A stretch of 64,000 nucleotides of DNA from positions 1,178,001 to 1,242,000 of the forward strand of contig LT700188.1 in assembly GCA_900155405.1 (NCBI GenBank), read 5' to 3'. The notes below the pieces were generated by a model. It was not told the DNA's origin, did no database searches, and was given only the letters and a program-made list of their open reading frames with translations. Positions within the stretch are counted from its first letter, which is position 1. Each line of letters starts with the position of its first letter. Source of the DNA: Negativicoccus massiliensis. Lineage in GTDB: Bacteria; Bacillota; Negativicutes; Veillonellales; Negativicoccaceae. A program made the position numbers and the translations under genes. Positions 31,514 through 46,278 of the stretch are shown piece after piece.

Positions 31514-31542
31514 TTGACAAATTGTAAACCTGTTTTTATAAT
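31514..31542 (+). promoter_or_regulatory. Promoter of birA-coaX-dusB
   Basis: TTGACA (31514-31519), 17-base spacer, TATAAT (31537-31542), 37 bases before birA. Confidence 0.85.
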
Positions 31543-35153: not shown

Positions 35154-35290
35154 ATAAGTGAAAGCTTGACTTATAGATTTGCTGTATTATTCAAAAGGCG
35201 CCGGCTCGCCTATACTGATGATGAGGACAACAGGCATTGATCAAGCGCGCAGTCGATGCCATGGTAAAAAATGTACAGGAGGATTGTTTC

Positions 35291-37594
35291 ATGGAACTGT
35301 TAAACGTCATCTGCAGCAAGGCTGCATACGAATGCTTTGACTTGCTTTCCGATCGTGAAGTTCTTTTTTTAGAAGATGTCATCGATAATTTCGAGGTGGA
35401 TTTAACTTCGGCGGCGGTCGTGATCGTCACGGAAGATGAAACGGATTGCCTGCAACGATTCATTGATTCGGCGCTGAATATTCCGATGTTCGTCATCCGC
35501 ACGCGCCGGGACACTCAAATTCCGCTGGATCTCCTGGCGGCCGGCGTTCACGTCATGGACGTCAACGAATTTGATCGCGACCTGTTCGGACGCCAGATCG
35601 AACAGGCGGCCAAAGATTATGAAAAAGAAATTTTACCCCCGTTCTTCCGTGAAATGACCGAATATGTGGGGACCGGTAACATGACGCTGGCGACGCCGGG
35701 TCACCATGGCGGTCAGTTCTTCCGTAAGCATCCGGCCGGACGTGCGTTGTATGACTGGTTCGGTGAAAATCTGTTCCGCTCCGATATGAGCTCGTCCGAC
35801 GTACGCATGGGCGATCTTCTGATTCACGAAGGGGCTCCGGCGGAAGCGGAAAAACACGCGGCGAAAGTGTTTAACGCCGACTCGACCTATTTCGTTATGA
35901 ACGGCACGTCGACGGCCAATAAGGTCGTCATCAACGCGCTCTTGCATCCGGGCGATGTCGTATTATTCGACCGCAACAACCACAAATCCGTGCACCACGG
36001 CGCGTTGGTACAGGTCGGCGCGAAACCGGTGTATTTGGAAACCGGACGCAACCCGTTCGGCTTTATCGGCGGCGTGGATGAACATTGCTTTGAAGAAGAC
36101 TATCTGCGCGCGGAAATCGCCAAAGTCGATCCGGAAAAAGCTAAAGCGAAACGTCCGTTCCGTTTGGCGCTGATCCAGCTCGGTACCTATGACGGCACGA
36201 TTTATAACGCGCGTCAGGTCATCGACCGCATCGGCCATCTGTGCGACTACATTCTCTTCGACTCCGCTTGGGTCGGTTATGAACAATTTATTCCGATGCT
36301 GCGCGACTGCAGTCCGCTGCTTTTGGAACTCGGACCGGATGATCCGGGCGTCATGGTCACGCAGTCGGTTCACAAACAGCTCGCCGGCTTCTCGCAGGCC
36401 TCCCAAATTCATAAAAAAGACAGTCATATTAAAGATCAGCCGCGGTACTGCAACGACGATTGCTTCAATAACGCGTTCATGCTGCACGCGTCGACCTCGC
36501 CGTTCTACGCGATTTTCGCCTCGCTGGACGTCAACGCGAAGATCCACGAAGGCGAAGCGGGACGCAAACTGTGGGCCGATACCGTCAAACTCGGCATTGA
36601 TATCCGCAAAGAAATCATCAAAAACTGTCACTACTTCAAGCCGTTTATTCCGGAAACGATCGACGGCAAAGCGTGGGAAGATTACGACACCAACATCATC
36701 GCCAATGATGTCCGCTTCTTCCGCATGAACCCGAAAGACAGCTGGCACGGCTTTGAAGCGTACGGTAAAAACCAGTACGTCATTGATCCGTGTAAATTGC
36801 TCCTTTACACGCCGGGCATCAATAAAAAAACCTGGGAATATGAAGACTTCGGGATTCCGGCGGGATTGCTTTCCAACTACCTGCGGGAACACGGCATGAC
36901 ACCGGAAAAGAGCGACTTGAACTCGATTCTCTTCCTGCTCACGCCGGCCGAAACCTACACGAAGATGCAGAACCTCATTTCGCTCCTCGTGCGGTTTGAA
37001 ACCTGTCTGGACGAAGACCTGCCGCTTTCGCAAGTCTTGCCGAAAATTTATAAGCAGAACGAAGCCCGTTATAAAGGCTACACGATCCGTCAACTCTGCC
37101 AGGAAATGCATGAGTTCTACAAATCGCGCCGCGTGAACATTCTGCAGAAGCGCTTGTTCCGCAAGGACTACCTGCCGGAAGTCGCGATGAGCGCGAAAGA
37201 CGCGAACTATGAATTCGTCGCGGGCAACTGGGAAAAAGTCACCCTCGATCAAATCAAAGGCCGCGTGGCTCTGGAAGGCGCGTTGCCGTACCCGCCGGGA
37301 ATCATCACGATTGATCCGGGCGAACGCTGGGGCGACACCGTCATCGAATATTTCCGCGCCTTGGAAGACACGATCAACTTGTTACCTGGCTTTGCCGGTG
37401 AAATTCAGGGCGTGCACTTCGAAGAAATCGACGGTAAAACGCGCGCGGTAGCGTATGTTTTGAAAGACGAAAGCGTCATTCAAAACGCGCCGACGCATCG
37501 CGCCGACGCCAAAGAGAAAGCGACGAGCGCGCCGACGACGGTCAAAAAAGAAAACGCGGATAGTAAAACGGCCGCGAAAACGACGAAAAAATAA
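35291..37594 (+). CDS. speF: Orn/Lys/Arg decarboxylase, ornithine decarboxylase-like (copy 1)
   Basis: PLP-dependent fold-I amino-acid decarboxylase; with the PotE-like antiporter next door it should convert ornithine to putrescine and export it, consuming protons. ATG 35291 follows AGGAGG (35277-35283); the protein is 767 residues. An N-terminal wing domain, the TPGHHGGQFFRKHPAGRALYD entry, the PLP-lysine motif TQSVHKQLAG and C-terminal domain LPYPPGI are present. The final ~45 residues form a Lys/Ala/Thr-rich tail absent from copy 2. The two copies are clearly homologous along their length. Substrate specificity (ornithine versus lysine) is inferred from the neighbour. Confidence 0.9.
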   Translation: MELLNVICSKAAYECFDLLSDREVLFLEDVIDNFEVDLTSAAVVIVTEDETDCLQRFIDSALNIPMFVIRTRRDTQIPLDLLAAGVHVMDVNEFDRDLFGRQIEQAAKDYEKEILPPFFREMTEYVGTGNMTLATPGHHGGQFFRKHPAGRALYDWFGENLFRSDMSSSDVRMGDLLIHEGAPAEAEKHAAKVFNADSTYFVMNGTSTANKVVINALLHPGDVVLFDRNNHKSVHHGALVQVGAKPVYLETGRNPFGFIGGVDEHCFEEDYLRAEIAKVDPEKAKAKRPFRLALIQLGTYDGTIYNARQVIDRIGHLCDYILFDSAWVGYEQFIPMLRDCSPLLLELGPDDPGVMVTQSVHKQLAGFSQASQIHKKDSHIKDQPRYCNDDCFNNAFMLHASTSPFYAIFASLDVNAKIHEGEAGRKLWADTVKLGIDIRKEIIKNCHYFKPFIPETIDGKAWEDYDTNIIANDVRFFRMNPKDSWHGFEAYGKNQYVIDPCKLLLYTPGINKKTWEYEDFGIPAGLLSNYLREHGMTPEKSDLNSILFLLTPAETYTKMQNLISLLVRFETCLDEDLPLSQVLPKIYKQNEARYKGYTIRQLCQEMHEFYKSRRVNILQKRLFRKDYLPEVAMSAKDANYEFVAGNWEKVTLDQIKGRVALEGALPYPPGIITIDPGERWGDTVIEYFRALEDTINLLPGFAGEIQGVHFEEIDGKTRAVAYVLKDESVIQNAPTHRADAKEKATSAPTTVKKENADSKTAAKTTKK

Positions 37595-37634
37595 TCGCCC
37601 GAGTGGCGATTGTATCTAAAAGGATGCGATCACT

Positions 37635-38966
37635 ATGTCACAAACAGCAAAAAAAATGGGCGTCGTTCAGCTGACTATTATTACGGCGGTTAACATGATG
37701 GGCTCCGGCATCATCATGTTGCCCGCCAAGCTGGCGTCCGTTGGTACGATCTCGATCCTCTCCTGGCTGGTAACAGCGGTAGGGTCGATGTGTTTGGCTT
37801 ACTGTTTTGCCCAGTGCAGCATGTTCAGCAGAGAACAGGGCGGCATGGGCGGCTACGCCGACAACGCGTTCGGCAAGGCCGGCAATTTTCTTTGCAACTA
37901 TACATACTCGTTTTCATTGATTATCGCCAACGTCGCGATTGCGATTTCCGCGGTCGGCTACGGCACGGAATTTATGGATATGAAGCTGTCGGCGTTGGGC
38001 GTCGGGATCGCAACGATCGCGACCCTTTGGGTCACTTCGATACTGAACTTCGGTGGCGCCGGCATCACCGGCAAAATCGGTTCCGTTACTGTTTGGGGCG
38101 TGATTATTCCGGTCGTCGGCATCAGTCTGATCGGCTGGTTCTGGTTTGATCCCACGCTCTACATCAACTCATGGAACCCGCACGGACTGCCTTTCATGGA
38201 AGGCGTCAGCGAGTCGATTACGCTAACCCTCTGGTCGTTCTTGGGTTTGGAATCCGCATGCGCCAACAGCGACGCGGTGGAAAATCCGGAAAAGAACGTA
38301 CCGATTGCGGTGTTGGGCGGCACGCTGGGAGCAGCGATCGTCTACATTGCCTCGACCAATGTCATGGCGGGGATTGTGCCGATTGATCAGTTAGCTGCTT
38401 CCAACGCACCGTTCGGCTTTGTTTTCGCGCATATGTTCAGTCCGATCGCCGGCAAGATCGTCATGGGTCTGATGACGCTCGCCTGCATCGGTTCGCTTTT
38501 GGGCTGGCAGTTCACGACCGCGCAGGTATTGAAGTCGTCGGCGGACGTCGGCTACTTCCCGCGCGTGTTCTCGAAAGTTACTCGCGCCAACGCGCCGGTC
38601 GCCGGCATGATCGTCATGACCATCATCGAGACCGTCATCGCGTTCGCGACCATTTCTCCGAGTCTGATGGAACAGTTCAGCGCGATCGTCGATCTCGCGG
38701 TCGTCACCAACCTCGTTCCTTATGTACTTTCGATGGCCGCTTTGCCGATTATTTTGCATAAAGCGGGCGTGTCGAAACAAAAACGGCTTACCACGCATGC
38801 GGTCAACCTCATTGCTACCGCGTACAGCTTCTACGCCCTGTATGCCTGCGGCGAATTCGCGCTGGCCTACGGCGGTCTGGTCACTTTCTTGGGATGGACT
38901 TTTTACGGCTTTATCGCCAATCGATTTGAAATTCGTCGGCCCGAAGAAAAGGTGACGACAAGTTAA
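37635..38966 (+). CDS. potE: Putrescine-ornithine antiporter (PotE-like, copy 1)
   Basis: APC-superfamily antiporter of 443 residues with about 12 membrane segments. N-terminal MGVVQLTIITAVNMMGSGII and the GGMGGYADNAFGKAGNF, NFGGAGITGKIGSVTVWGVI and VENPEKNVPIAVLGGTLGAA blocks follow E. coli PotE closely. It should exchange intracellular putrescine for external ornithine. It lies 40 bases after speF1, the same pairing as speF-potE in E. coli. Confidence 0.92.
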   Translation: MSQTAKKMGVVQLTIITAVNMMGSGIIMLPAKLASVGTISILSWLVTAVGSMCLAYCFAQCSMFSREQGGMGGYADNAFGKAGNFLCNYTYSFSLIIANVAIAISAVGYGTEFMDMKLSALGVGIATIATLWVTSILNFGGAGITGKIGSVTVWGVIIPVVGISLIGWFWFDPTLYINSWNPHGLPFMEGVSESITLTLWSFLGLESACANSDAVENPEKNVPIAVLGGTLGAAIVYIASTNVMAGIVPIDQLAASNAPFGFVFAHMFSPIAGKIVMGLMTLACIGSLLGWQFTTAQVLKSSADVGYFPRVFSKVTRANAPVAGMIVMTIIETVIAFATISPSLMEQFSAIVDLAVVTNLVPYVLSMAALPIILHKAGVSKQKRLTTHAVNLIATAYSFYALYACGEFALAYGGLVTFLGWTFYGFIANRFEIRRPEEKVTTS

Positions 38967-39117: not shown

Positions 39118-40038
39118 ATGAACCTGGATTTTTATCGCAACTTTGTTACTGTGGCGGAATCCTATACCGTAAGCGAAGCTGCGCGGCGTCTGAATATCGC
39201 GCAGCCGGCCTTGTCAGCGCAAATCAAAAGCCTGGAGTCCTACTACGGCGTTCAACTGATTAAAACGAAACAGGGCAGTCGTCATTTGGAACTGACGGCC
39301 GCCGGTGAACTTTTATATCGGCGGATGCGCCATATTTTGAATGCGACGGATGTACTGCGGACCGACCTGAAAATGGTCGCTTTCAATGAATTGGAGACGG
39401 TCGCGGTCGGCACGGTGCCGGATCTTTCGATGGCCGTCGGTGAATATGTCGCCGACTTCGCCGAAGCGCATCCGGACCGCCGTTGGCGCATCACTGTCAA
39501 CGATGTCGCCACGCTCGCCGAACATTTGGAGCGCGGCGAGATTCACTGCATCATTACGCCGTTTGCCGCGTCGCAGGCGTTTATGTACACTTTGGAGGGC
39601 GCGTTTACAAGACCGATTTACGCGATCGGGAAAAAGGATCACCCGCTATTGAAAGACAAGCAACATGTACGAATGACATCTCTGACCAAGGAACCGATTT
39701 GCTTGGCGACGGAACTGGAAGACGGTTTTTTCCGCGGCTGTCGCGAAGAACATGTCGAAGTTCCCGTCGGGATACGCTGCACCTCGACGGCGACCGTGGT
39801 CGATATAGCCTTGCGCTGTAACCTGATCGCGGTCATCGGCGGGGACGTGTCGCCGTGGTTGGCTCCCTACATTACGGCGGTACCGTTGCGCAGCAAATAC
39901 CTGCGGGCGGAGCATTACGTTTATACCCAAAAAGGGGCGGATCTCCCGAAAGTCATGCGTCAATTTCTTGACCACCTTAAAGAACGGGAAGACTACCGGC
40001 CCGACTTCCCGCGTTCCGAGATGTCAGCGGAGGTTTGA
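39118..40038 (+). CDS. LysR-family transcriptional regulator
   Basis: A 306-residue regulator with an N-terminal winged helix-turn-helix (FYRNFVTVAESYTVSEAARRL, PALSAQIKSLE) and a C-terminal effector-binding domain from about residue 90. ATG 39118 follows a GGGGGA stretch. It sits on the same strand right after potE1 and before lysS, so it may control the ornithine/putrescine modules or be autoregulated; no LTTR binding site was confirmed. A near-perfect inverted repeat AGGTGGAG-GCAA-CTCCACCT lies at 39075-39094, just upstream. Confidence 0.88.
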   Translation: MNLDFYRNFVTVAESYTVSEAARRLNIAQPALSAQIKSLESYYGVQLIKTKQGSRHLELTAAGELLYRRMRHILNATDVLRTDLKMVAFNELETVAVGTVPDLSMAVGEYVADFAEAHPDRRWRITVNDVATLAEHLERGEIHCIITPFAASQAFMYTLEGAFTRPIYAIGKKDHPLLKDKQHVRMTSLTKEPICLATELEDGFFRGCREEHVEVPVGIRCTSTATVVDIALRCNLIAVIGGDVSPWLAPYITAVPLRSKYLRAEHYVYTQKGADLPKVMRQFLDHLKEREDYRPDFPRSEMSAEV

Positions 40039-40063
40039 CACTCGAAAAACGGTTTGCTATAAT
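40035..40063 (+). promoter_or_regulatory. Consensus promoter upstream of lysS
   Basis: TTGACA (40035-40040), exactly 17 bases, TATAAT (40058-40063). It overlaps the LysR stop codon and would start a leader of about 230 bases. Confidence 0.85.
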
Positions 40064-41924: not shown

Positions 41925-42263
41925 GCGCGCAAGGCAATTTATATATAGCAAAAATATATAAGTTAAGCATAACTTAGCGAAAATAAGTGTTTCAATATGC
42001 ATGGAACGCATACGAAGAAAAATAGGGCGAATAAAAATAAAATTATAAAAACATATCGATATATTAAAAATGTTTTTTTATAATTTTTAATACATCCGCT
42101 GAAAAATACCCGCTGAGCCTTATATAAACGATGTTTGGAAGATTATAAAATAATCGTTGAAGTTCTTTACAAAAATTTTAAAATTATCAATAATTATTTT
42201 ATTTGACACAGAAATAACTCTGATCAACCTATTTTTTGAAGTAAATCTATGAATATTATGAAA

Positions 42264-42293
42264 TTGACAACCTTCGAGATGAAGGAATATAAT
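42264..42293 (+). promoter_or_regulatory. Promoter of speF2-potE2
   Basis: TTGACA (42264-42269), 18-base spacer, TATAAT (42288-42293). It lies at the end of an AT-rich block (41940-42290) that has no gene, and predicts a leader of about 240 bases. Confidence 0.75.
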
Positions 42294-42299
42294 GATGTC

Positions 42300-42536
42300 G
42301 AACAACGGGTGAAAGCCGCAAACGCCCGTGTGGCATATAGTGAGAGCGTTTTATACGCCGTATGCGGTCAGAACGGAATTATCAAACAGGTCAGAATCGG
42401 ATGACGATCTGCCGGGATAACGCGAATCGCCGAGCAGGGAAATCGATTCGACAGGCTGATGCATCGCGGTGTGCTAATGCCGTTTTTTTGTGGCTAAGAC
42501 ATTTATTGTCTAAAGTGATGAGACTGGGAGGTCTTA
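42300..42536 (+). promoter_or_regulatory. Long 5' leader of speF2 with terminator-like and RBS-sequestering hairpins
   Basis: GGC...GCA-TCGCGGTG-TGC...GCC followed by T7 (about 42455-42489) resembles an intrinsic terminator. Just downstream, TAAGAC (42495-42500) can pair with GTCTTA (42531-42536) across the ribosome binding site GGGAGG, or AGACA (42497-42501) with TGTCT (42507-42511), or AGAC (42521-42524) with GTCT (42531-42534). These choices are mutually exclusive, as in riboregulators. The E. coli speF leader is known to be ornithine-sensing via a small peptide; here function is inferred only from structure. Confidence 0.45.
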
Positions 42537-44732
42537 ATGATGAAACATCTGAAAGTGGGTTACAGTCCGCTCGCAGAACAGTACTTTGACTTGGCGATCG
42601 GCCGGGAAAAAGTATGTCTCGACAATACGGACTTCACCGATGTCGCGGTAGCCGTTATCACGGATCAGGAAATGGACTACCTCGACACAGTGAAAGCAAC
42701 GGGATTCAACATTCCGGTCATTGCCGTATTGACCGAAGGCAAAGCGCTCGACTTACAATACATGGGCCAAATCGACCATGTCATCGACGCGGCGAACACG
42801 GAAACCAAACGCGGTTACTACAGCCGCCAGGTTGAACAGGCTGCAGCGGCGTATGAAGAAGACGTATTACCGCCGTTCTTCCGTTCGTTGGCTGACTATG
42901 TCGCAGCCGGCAAATCGCAGTTTGACTGCCCGGGCCATCAGGGCGGCATGTTCTACCGTAAAATGCCCGCCGGCCGTGCTTTCTTTGATTTCTTTGGCGA
43001 AAACGTATTCCGCGCCGACCTTTGCAACGCCGACGTTAAGTTGGGCGACCTCTTGATTCATGAAGGTCCGGCTTTGGACGCGCAGCAGCACGCGGCGCAG
43101 GTTTACAACGCGGACAAAACGTACTTCGTTTTGAACGGTACGTCGTCCTCCAATAAAGTCGTATTGAACGCTTTGCTCGCCCCCGGCGACTTGGTTCTCT
43201 ATGACCGCAACAACCACAAATCGATCAACCACGGCGCGTTGGTTCAGGCCGGCGCGACTCCGGTATACCTGGAAACCGCGCGTAACCCGTTCGGTTTCAT
43301 CGGCGGTATCCTGGAAGGCTGCTTCGATGAAAAGAAACTCCGCGAACTCGCGGCCGAAATGGATCCGAAAAAAGCGAAAGAAAAACGCCCGTTCCGTCTG
43401 GCGGTCATCCAGCTCGGTACTTATGACGGCACGATTTACAACGCGAAACAGGTCATCGAAAAGATCGGTCACCTCTGCGACTACATTCTCTTTGACTCCG
43501 CTTGGGTAGGTTATGAACAGTTTATTCCGATGATGCGCGACTGCAGTCCGATGCTCTTGGAACTCGGTCCGGATGATCCGGGTATCTTTGTAACCCAATC
43601 TGTCCACAAACAACAGGCCGGTTTCTCGCAGACCTCGCAGATCCACAAAAAAGACAGCCATATCAAAGGTCAGGATCGTTACTGCCCGCATAAACGCTTG
43701 AACAACGCGTTCATGATGCACGCGTCGACCTCGCCGTTCTATCCGATGTTCGCGTCCTTGGACGTTAACGCGAAAATGGCCGACGGCGAAGCAGGCAAAC
43801 GCCTCTGGGTAGAAGCCGTTAAACTCGGTATCGAAACCCGTAAAGCGATTTTGCGCAGCTGCAAGATGATCAAACCGTTCGTTCCGCCGGCAGTCAACGG
43901 CAAACCGTGGGAAGACGGCGACACCGAAGACATGGCGAACAACCTGGACTACTTCCGTTTCGTTCCGGGTGAACGTTGGCACTCTTTCGACGGTTACGGC
44001 GAAGGCCAGTACTTCGTCGACCCGATGAAACTGCAGTTGACCACGCCGGGTATCCACGCGGAAGACGGCACCTATGAAGACTTCGGTATTCATGCCAACA
44101 TTCTCGCGAACTACCTCCGTGAAAACAACATCATTCCGGAAAAATGCGACTTGAACTCGATTCTGTTCCTCCTGACGCCGGCGGAAACACCGACCAAGAT
44201 GCAGAACCTCGTAGCGCAAATCGCCCGCTTCGAACGTTTGATCGAAGAAGACGCGCCGATGCAGGACGTCTTGCCGACCATTTACTATAACAACATCGAC
44301 AAATACAAAGGCTACACGATCCGTCGTCTCTGCCAGGAAATGCAGGACTTCTACAAAGAACGTAACGTGAAAGAACTGCAGAAACGTTTGTTCCTGAAAG
44401 ATTACTTCCCGGAATATGTCAATACGCCGTATAAAGCGAACCTCGAATTCGTTCGCAACCATGGCGAATTGGTACCGGTTGACGAAATCGAAGGCCGCAT
44501 CGCTCTCGAAGGCGCGTTGCCGTACCCGCCGGGAGTTCTGACGGTCGTTCCGGGCGAACGCTGGAGCGCTACCGCGCAGAAATACTTCCTCGCGCTGAAC
44601 GAAGGCATCAACCAGTTGCCGGGCTTCGCGCCGGAAATCCAGGGTGTTTACCTGGAAACGGAAGACGGTAAGAAACGCGCTTACGGTTATGTATTGAAGA
44701 AAGAATACGAAGAAGAATTCGCGAAAGCGTAA
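42537..44732 (+). CDS. speF: Orn/Lys/Arg decarboxylase, ornithine decarboxylase SpeF-like (copy 2)
   Basis: PLP-dependent decarboxylase of 731 residues, closest in plan to inducible SpeF: wing domain (about 1-105), CPGHQGGMFYRKMPAGRAFFD, PLP lysine in TQSVHKQQAGFSQ, and the C-terminal LPYPPGVLTVVPGERW block. Two adjacent ATGs (42537 and 42540) follow GGGAGG; either may be used. It lacks the Lys/Ala tail of copy 1. It is paired with potE2 and has its own promoter and a long structured leader, suggesting separate, probably acid- or ornithine-dependent, control. Confidence 0.92.
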   Translation: MMKHLKVGYSPLAEQYFDLAIGREKVCLDNTDFTDVAVAVITDQEMDYLDTVKATGFNIPVIAVLTEGKALDLQYMGQIDHVIDAANTETKRGYYSRQVEQAAAAYEEDVLPPFFRSLADYVAAGKSQFDCPGHQGGMFYRKMPAGRAFFDFFGENVFRADLCNADVKLGDLLIHEGPALDAQQHAAQVYNADKTYFVLNGTSSSNKVVLNALLAPGDLVLYDRNNHKSINHGALVQAGATPVYLETARNPFGFIGGILEGCFDEKKLRELAAEMDPKKAKEKRPFRLAVIQLGTYDGTIYNAKQVIEKIGHLCDYILFDSAWVGYEQFIPMMRDCSPMLLELGPDDPGIFVTQSVHKQQAGFSQTSQIHKKDSHIKGQDRYCPHKRLNNAFMMHASTSPFYPMFASLDVNAKMADGEAGKRLWVEAVKLGIETRKAILRSCKMIKPFVPPAVNGKPWEDGDTEDMANNLDYFRFVPGERWHSFDGYGEGQYFVDPMKLQLTTPGIHAEDGTYEDFGIHANILANYLRENNIIPEKCDLNSILFLLTPAETPTKMQNLVAQIARFERLIEEDAPMQDVLPTIYYNNIDKYKGYTIRRLCQEMQDFYKERNVKELQKRLFLKDYFPEYVNTPYKANLEFVRNHGELVPVDEIEGRIALEGALPYPPGVLTVVPGERWSATAQKYFLALNEGINQLPGFAPEIQGVYLETEDGKKRAYGYVLKKEYEEEFAKA

Positions 44733-44764
44733 TTCTCTTGTATCTGTAAAACCTGCTTTCAGAC

Positions 44765-44794
44765 ACGGTGTGCCGGGCGGACTCGGCACACCGT
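44765..44794 (+). repeat. Strong hairpin between speF2 and potE2
   Basis: ACGGTGTGCCG (44765-44775) and CGGCACACCGT (44784-44794) form an 11-bp stem with an 8-base loop. No T run follows, so it is more likely an mRNA processing or stability element than a terminator; it could lower potE2 expression relative to speF2. Confidence 0.7.
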
Positions 44795-44829
44795 AATGGA
44801 AGGCGGGTATTGAGGAGAGTGTTTTTATA

Positions 44830-46278
44830 ATGGCAGATAGCTCACAAAATAAGATGAGCGTTGTCCAGCTGACAATTTTGACAGCGGTCAACATGATGGG
44901 GTCCGGTATTATTATGTTACCGACCAAGCTTGCGCAAGTAGGCACCATGTCCATTTTGAGCTGGATCGTGACAGCGGTCGGTTCGATGTGCTTGGCCTAT
45001 GCGTTTGCGAAATGTGGTATGTACACCCGCCGTGGCGGCGGCATGGGCGGTTACGCTGAATATACGTTCGGCAAAGCCGGTTCCTTTATGGCGAACTACA
45101 CCTATGGTGTATCGCTCTTGATTGCCAACATCGCGATCGCGATTTCGGCCGTCGGTTACGCGCAGGAATTTATGGAAGTGCAGTTGTCTTCCGTAGCGGT
45201 CGGCATGTGGACGATTGCTACACTTTGGTTGGCGACGGTATTGAACTTCGGCGGCGCGAAATACACCGGCCGCGTTTCTTCGGTTACCGTGTGGGGTGTT
45301 ATTATCCCGGTAGTCGGTATTTCCGTTCTCGGTTGGTTCTGGTTCAGCCCGTCGACCTATACGGAAGCATGGAACCCGCACAACTTGCAATTCTTTGATG
45401 GTTTAACACAGTCGATCGCGATGACATTGTGGGCCTTCCTCGGCATGGAATCGGCAAGTGCCAACTCCGAAGCCGTTGAAAACCCGGAAAAGAACGTGCC
45501 GATCGCTTGCTTAGGCGGTACGTTGGGCGCAGCTATCATTTACATCTTGTCCACCAACGTTATGGCCGGTATTGTTCCGAACGCGGAACTCGCGATGTCG
45601 TCGGCTCCGTTCGGCTTGGCATTCGCGACGATGTTCACCCCGACAGTAGGTAAAATCGTCATGGGTCTCATGGTAATGTCGTGCTTCGGTTCGCTCTTGG
45701 GCTGGCAGTTCACGATCGCTCAGGTATTCAAAACATCGTCGGACGAAGGCTACTTCCCGAAACTGTTCAGCAAAGTTACTTCCTATGACGCGCCGATCGT
45801 CGGCATGATCACGATCACCGTCATTCAGTCGCTCCTGTCGTTAATGACGATCAGCGACGCGCTCTATGAACAGTTTGAAACGCTGGTTAACCTGGCGGTT
45901 GTTACGAACATTATCCCGTATCTGCTCTCGATGGCGGCTCTGGTCGTTATTCAGAAAGCGGCGGGGCATTACAGCGGAACGACCACCTTCATCGCGCTCC
46001 TCGGTTCGTTGTACAGCTTCTATGCGCTGTATTCTTCGGGCTTCGACGCGATGACCTACGGTTCGCTCGTTACTTTCTTCGGTTGGACGCTCTACGGTTT
46101 TGTTTCGGAACGTTTCGACCTGATGGAATCCATTTACTGGAACCGTGAAGAAGACAAACGCACGGGTCGTGTCGATGAAGAAGCGCAAAAACTCTACGCG
46201 GCGCATCAAGCTGAAGTAGACAGCGCGGCACATGTATCGCACGAATACAATCCGGCAGCGGAAAGCGAAAGCAAATAA
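44830..46278 (+). CDS. potE: Putrescine-ornithine antiporter (PotE-like, copy 2)
   Basis: An APC-superfamily antiporter of 482 residues with about 12 membrane segments, nearly colinear with E. coli PotE (MSVVQLTILTAVNMMGSGII, GGMGGYAEYTFGKAGSFMAN, NFGGAKYTGRVSSVTVWGVI, VENPEKNVPIACLGG). It differs from copy 1 by a ~40-residue charged cytoplasmic C-terminal tail. GAGGAGAG precedes ATG 44830. Partner of speF2. Confidence 0.93.
   Translation: MADSSQNKMSVVQLTILTAVNMMGSGIIMLPTKLAQVGTMSILSWIVTAVGSMCLAYAFAKCGMYTRRGGGMGGYAEYTFGKAGSFMANYTYGVSLLIANIAIAISAVGYAQEFMEVQLSSVAVGMWTIATLWLATVLNFGGAKYTGRVSSVTVWGVIIPVVGISVLGWFWFSPSTYTEAWNPHNLQFFDGLTQSIAMTLWAFLGMESASANSEAVENPEKNVPIACLGGTLGAAIIYILSTNVMAGIVPNAELAMSSAPFGLAFATMFTPTVGKIVMGLMVMSCFGSLLGWQFTIAQVFKTSSDEGYFPKLFSKVTSYDAPIVGMITITVIQSLLSLMTISDALYEQFETLVNLAVVTNIIPYLLSMAALVVIQKAAGHYSGTTTFIALLGSLYSFYALYSSGFDAMTYGSLVTFFGWTLYGFVSERFDLMESIYWNREEDKRTGRVDEEAQKLYAAHQAEVDSAAHVSHEYNPAAESESK

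Follow-up and report, generated by a model that had tools for sequence, protein, structure and literature searches.

Genes at the locus and leaders compared

The analysed window, a stretch of 64,000 nucleotides, is part of the 1.36-Mb genome of Negativicoccus massiliensis (G000:C1:1178001-1242000) and holds two speF-potE operons (35291-38966 and 42537-46278), both within 11 kb; lysS and a gene for a LysR-type regulator lie between the two. A third decarboxylase homologue of the same genome is situated at G000:C1:690633-692519. The second operon and the region in front of it are treated here:

42537..44732, + strand: speF2, ornithine decarboxylase (NCBIfam NF010092, 1252 bits against a cut-off of 794)
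44830..46278, + strand: potE2, putrescine-ornithine antiporter (NCBIfam TIGR04299, 748 bits against a cut-off of 560), downstream of speF2 and probably in the same operon

The decarboxylase gene opens with a tandem ATG (42537-42542), and since the first ATG is absent from both relatives, which retain the second only, the start codon is probably the one at 42540. These relatives are a second species of the same genus (G001) and a member of another genus of the same family (G003), so that three leaders of the speF2 type could be compared. A protein scan of the genome contigs for further orthologues gave the G003 contig again and nothing more, and a class-wide search added three distant genes, all with other leaders. 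Across the leader, G001 is 78% identical to the window; BLAST similarity to G003 is confined to the ribosome-binding site, the middle being unalignable, and misalignment dominated the result when a consensus fold of the three leaders was computed.

Promoter and length of the leader

42264..42293, + strand: promoter TTGACA-N18-TATAAT, matching the consensus at 12 of 12 positions

Both hexamers are perfect and separated by 18 bases upstream of the speF2-type gene in all three leaders, and the letters of the spacer have changed among them, which points to selection on the hexamers. Counted from the -10 box, the start codon follows after 246 nt in the window, 246 nt in G001 and 253 nt in G003. Judged from the -10 box, the transcript would start at about 42300. 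Given the same perfect promoter at the same distance in both relatives, the consensus promoter and the stretch of about 240 untranslated bases named in the original prediction hold up well, and it is very likely that a leader of this length is transcribed. Perfect TTGACA/TATAAT promoters number three in the window against 0.02 expected per window; the other two lie on the + strand at 31514-31542 and 40035-40063.

Conservation within the leader

Between the window and G001, changes are distributed very unevenly: one in the 29 nt of 42307-42335 (the 5' block) and one in the roughly 47 bases from 42470 onward (the 3' block), as against about 0.30 per base in 42350-42400 (leader positions 50-100). 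Despite its unalignable middle, G003 retains TTTTTGTGGC, the short hairpin that follows it, and AGACTGGGAGGTCTTA. The element TTTTTGTGGC, in the region of the T run, is identical in all three leaders and is their most conserved upstream sequence; followed by GGGAGG 20-36 nt downstream, it occurs once per genome in the three genomes, and control patterns gave no occurrence. No known RNA family matches the window in Rfam at gathering scores, and the best of the permissive matches is far below the cut-off, none of them being SAM-I.

The folding energy of the whole leader is unexceptional (z -1.25), as would be expected if this were merely a long unregulated leader with structures as by-products. 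We consider this highly unlikely, as the two blocks (1/29 and 1/~47 changes against up to 0.3 per nt elsewhere) and a long-range pairing which persists through sequence change argue against it.

A predicted long-range pairing between the two conserved blocks

42305..42329, + strand: 5'-terminal hairpin ACGGGUG-AAAGCCGCAAA-CGCCCGU, -10.2 kcal/mol
42314..42322, + strand: loop strand of the putative pseudoknot, AGCCGCAAA, nine pairs with 42487-42495
42483..42495, + strand: T run and 3' strand of the putative pseudoknot, UUUGUGGCU (42487-42495), containing the invariant element named above

The conserved 5' and 3' blocks are the two strands of this pairing, while the middle of the leader changes faster. 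In G001 the 5' hairpin is kept, with UG in place of CG and UA in place of UG, and so are both pseudoknot strands. At the same place G003 has a 9-bp 5' hairpin, GGAAACUCG/CGAGUUUUC, of entirely different sequence, the loop of which, UGCCAUGAAA, can form 10 bp with UUUUGUGGCA; the pairing thus measures 9-10 bp in each of the three leaders. From the window to G003, one pair has changed on both sides and three on one side only (A-U to U-A, G-U to A-U, C-G to U-G, A-U to G-U), and all of them still pair; covariation is nevertheless thin, because three such leaders exist in the collections and two come from one genus. In all three sequences the pairing of the loop with a distal strand is therefore kept through sequence change.

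When 5' hairpin and loop-anchor match were tested jointly against shuffled sequences, the level of the window was reached by 29 of 4000 shuffles and that of G003 by 6 of 4000, although it should be noted that the pseudoknot hypothesis was formed on the same three sequences, two of them from one genus, that served for the test. When 60 non-redundant decarboxylase leaders were scanned with neither loop nor partner specified, the three speF2-type leaders received the top three pairing scores, and the loop-anchor pair came out as the best in each of them; other segments of each leader match the 5' end roughly equally well, or better. The most significant pairing predicted here is that of the 5' loop with UUUGUGGC, which is absent from the original prediction, and the conserved element is a predicted long-range pseudoknot formed by the loop of the 5' hairpin and the bases directly after the T run.

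The conserved U-rich element could also be read differently, namely as the binding site of a trans-acting small RNA which, together with Hfq, recognises UUUUUGUGGC and uses the leader as its target platform. All four family genomes encode Hfq, whereas none encodes CsrA, and the element is the most conserved sequence upstream of the gene; against this stands the cis partner that the element already has and that changes along with it, and we regard the small RNA as quite improbable.

The region before the T run and the ribosome-binding site

42454..42481, + strand: hairpin GGC-[UGAU/UAAU]-GCAU-loop-GUGC-GCC preceding the T run, a possible weak terminator, also in G001
42497..42511, + strand: small hairpin AGACA-UUUAU-UGUCU (GACA/UGUC in G001, UCGC-UGCAA-GCGA in G003)
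42519..42536, + strand: hairpin UGAGACU-GGGA-GGUCUUA around the Shine-Dalgarno sequence GGGAGG (42526-42531), -6.7 kcal/mol

The original prediction placed here an intrinsic terminator (a GC-rich hairpin with T7) acting as attenuator, combined with a local translational switch in which a TAAGAC/GTCTTA helix competes with other pairings at the ribosome-binding site. A hairpin followed by T7 does exist in the window and in G001, where the architecture is the same with an altered inner stem (GUACA/UGUGC). The pairing listed by the terminator scan, GCGGTGT/ATGCCGT, is however broken in G001, the hairpin that takes its place has just three outer GC pairs, and the scan itself, which covered 1.5 kb, listed three terminator-like sites where chance alone would give 1.8. 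In G003 the GGC...GCC hairpin was not found; there are only five T, with no evident hairpin directly before them. A GC-rich hairpin with a U run is accordingly confined to the window and G001, with different stems, and the terminator was rejected as the conserved core. Conservation of the U run would be accounted for, at least partly, by its pairing with the 5' loop in the predicted pseudoknot. As a side observation, the symmetric internal loop UGAU/UAAU of the window hairpin (42454-42481), found at the same place in L002, resembles the UAA/GAN motif.

The hairpin burying GGGAGG folds better than 198 of 200 shuffles in the window (2/200 fold as well), is kept in all three leaders and beats nearly all shuffles in each species, and the AGACA/TGTCT pairing corresponds to the small hairpin, which is built from other letters in G003. 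The TAAGAC/GTCTTA helix, on the other hand, is restricted to the window (G001 reads TATGAC and G003 AAGCTC). Comparison with homologous leaders, which the original prediction had named among its checks, thus finds the ribosome-binding-site hairpin and the long-range pairing kept and the competing helix lost; the layout of attenuator plus TAAGAC/GTCTTA switch is not conserved among the three leaders, and despite the T7 and the conserved hairpin at the ribosome-binding site we hold this mechanism to be unlikely.

CsrA binds GGA in loops such as that of the ribosome-binding-site hairpin. It was rejected as a regulator of this loop, no PF02599 match being present in the four genomes of the family (controls positive).

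Absence of a common leader peptide

In Salmonella and E. coli the same gene is preceded by speFL/orf34; speF begins at mRNA nucleotide 516, and its control depends on translation of a 34-aa ORF, on Rho and on RNase G (PMC6386406). A mechanism of this gammaproteobacterial type has in its favour the same gene, a long leader (about 240 nt before speF-potE) and two open frames in the region (42249-42404 and 42362-42589). The former, of 51 amino acids and the one sizeable frame to start within the originally predicted region, overlaps the promoter, has its first codon ahead of the predicted transcript start and is disrupted by a frameshift in G001; its peptide has no relatives in the genome contigs. 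No ORF with a usable Shine-Dalgarno start, and no conserved early short ORF, is common to the three leaders, and no three-base periodicity is seen in the 46 substitutions that separate the window from G001. We therefore rejected a leader peptide and regard such a mechanism as extremely improbable, which bears out the earlier remark that no peptide like that of the speF leader is evident.

A possible mode of action

Taken together, we think it rather probable, from the sequence comparisons, that 42300-42539 is a cis-acting, peptide-free and family-specific regulatory leader of speF2-potE2 with a long-range pseudoknot; its control over speF2 is our inference. The idea of a riboregulated leader thus survives in its general form, which agrees with the promoter, the length, the 5' and 3' blocks, the hairpin at the ribosome-binding site and the lack of a peptide, while the layout proposed for it does not.

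The RNA would open with a hairpin, the 11-nt loop of which would pair over about 165 nt with the distal strand directly upstream of the short hairpin, which in turn is followed by the hairpin around the Shine-Dalgarno sequence. Such pairing would create a compact pseudoknot beside the ribosome-binding site, and this may set the translation of speF2 or the passage of the polymerase. In another state the loop would pair elsewhere, namely with a near UGUGGC in the window and G001 and with GGCGAUCCGGG in G003:

42329..42334, + strand: UGUGGC, nearer partner copy, a possible alternative to the distal copy in pairing with GCCGCA (42315-42320)

UGUGGC is found twice, at 42329 and 42489, and either copy can take the loop sequence GCCGCA. 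The near copy is kept in G001, within the predicted fold; a counterpart was not found in the G003 leader, the 5' end of which has GGCGAUCCGGG as a different, strong alternative partner. Mutually exclusive pairing of the loop acting as a switch is plausible, but the alternative partner differs between the genera. A local H-type pseudoknot, in which GCCGC would pair with GUGGC without opening the 5' hairpin, was rejected on geometrical grounds, since a single linking base is too short to bridge a 6-bp stem; GCCGC/GUGGC can therefore only be an alternative to the 5' hairpin.

Guesses at the signal, drawn from the gene context, are ornithine, putrescine or a small RNA. A point against the proposed reading is that the middle of the leader, unlike usual metabolite aptamers, has no core in common with G003.

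Self-complementary loops in other decarboxylase leaders

A different type of hairpin was observed about 40-60 nt upstream of other decarboxylase starts, with loops holding GUGCAC, GCGCGC, UGCGCA, GUCGAC or UCGCGA. It is present in L095, L045-L050, L052, L058, L080, L093, L098 and L037, as well as before speF1 of the window:

35233-35260: hairpin of speF1, GGCAUUGAU-CAAGCGCGCA-GUCGAUGCC, with self-complementary loop AAGCGCGCA

The density of GC-rich self-complementary hexamers is highest at -40 to -59, with 15 per 1000 positions compared with about 5 at other distances. Hairpins presenting such hexamers at -20 to -90 occur in 13 of 61 leaders; tiles lying farther upstream of these genes have them in 8 of 305 cases (binomial p ~6e-9) and tiles of the GC-richer window in 7.5% (p 5e-4). 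Both p values are too small, since the leaders are related. When twelve of the loops are aligned, a change in the second letter goes with a change in the fifth (U-A seven times, C-G four times, U-G once), which is not independent evidence, because the set was chosen partly for self-complementarity. A covariance model of these hairpins was left unused; it came out without base pairs because the loop spacers differ in length. In L035, L036, L039 and L040 a hairpin AAAUUAU-CGUUGUUAAC-AUAAUUU lies just upstream of the ribosome-binding site, its loop containing the AT-rich palindrome GUUAAC at about the same position as the GC-rich loops.

Presenting a self-complementary loop, these hairpins are like the dimerisation loop of HIV-1, a retroviral kissing loop. 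In the relevant part of a review of RNA dimers, no leader of a bacterial mRNA is named that carries a self-complementary kissing loop of six letters (PMC7357161). The hairpin is missing from all three leaders with the putative pseudoknot, and a relative of speF2 in a third genus of the family (G002, L049) carries it. By analogy, the ornithine decarboxylase mRNAs of this order might be controlled by loop-loop contacts, two mRNA copies being paired through GUGCAC, GCGCGC, GUCGAC or UCGCGA, and these contacts would be replaced in speF2 by the intramolecular pairing of the 5' loop; we put this forward as a speculative and doubtful idea. As the stability of kissing loops depends on cations, polyamines could act directly on the contact.

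Comparison with known systems

In the speF-potE leader of Salmonella, a 5'-proximal segment likewise pairs over a long distance with the ribosome-binding region of speF (PMC6386406). The speF2 leader shares with speFL/orf34 its length, its structure and the type of operon, but differs in that the speF2 leaders have no common ORF or such a peptide. The spermidine riboswitch, a SAM-I variant (PMC10853860), is another RNA leader before polyamine genes; it has a SAM-I fold, whereas the speF2 leader matches no Rfam family at gathering scores and has no SAM-I among its permissive matches.

The preQ1 and ribosomal-protein leaders are pseudoknotted translational leaders in which a hairpin loop pairs near the ribosome-binding site, as the 5' loop of speF2 is predicted to do; in speF2, however, the predicted helix would enclose about 165 nt, and the middle of the leader varies from genus to genus. 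One alphaproteobacterial RNA element reportedly stands before speF and is thus, like the present leader, a structured RNA before an ornithine decarboxylase gene, although in other bacteria, and the speF2 leader has no Rfam counterpart. RNA elements of alphaproteobacteria have been described (PMC1273637). A literature search, with subscription journals largely outside its coverage, gave no report of a leader of the speF2 kind in these bacteria.

The ornithine decarboxylase leaders of gammaproteobacteria are known to sense the pathway through a peptide. With the same operon in an unrelated lineage, no peptide and a predicted pseudoknot, the leader of speF2 suggests that RNA-only control of polyamine genes may have arisen separately, and the pseudoknot helix on which it would depend is short and defined. 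The self-complementary loops of the sister leaders, if they dimerise, would represent an unusual kind of bacterial mRNA control.
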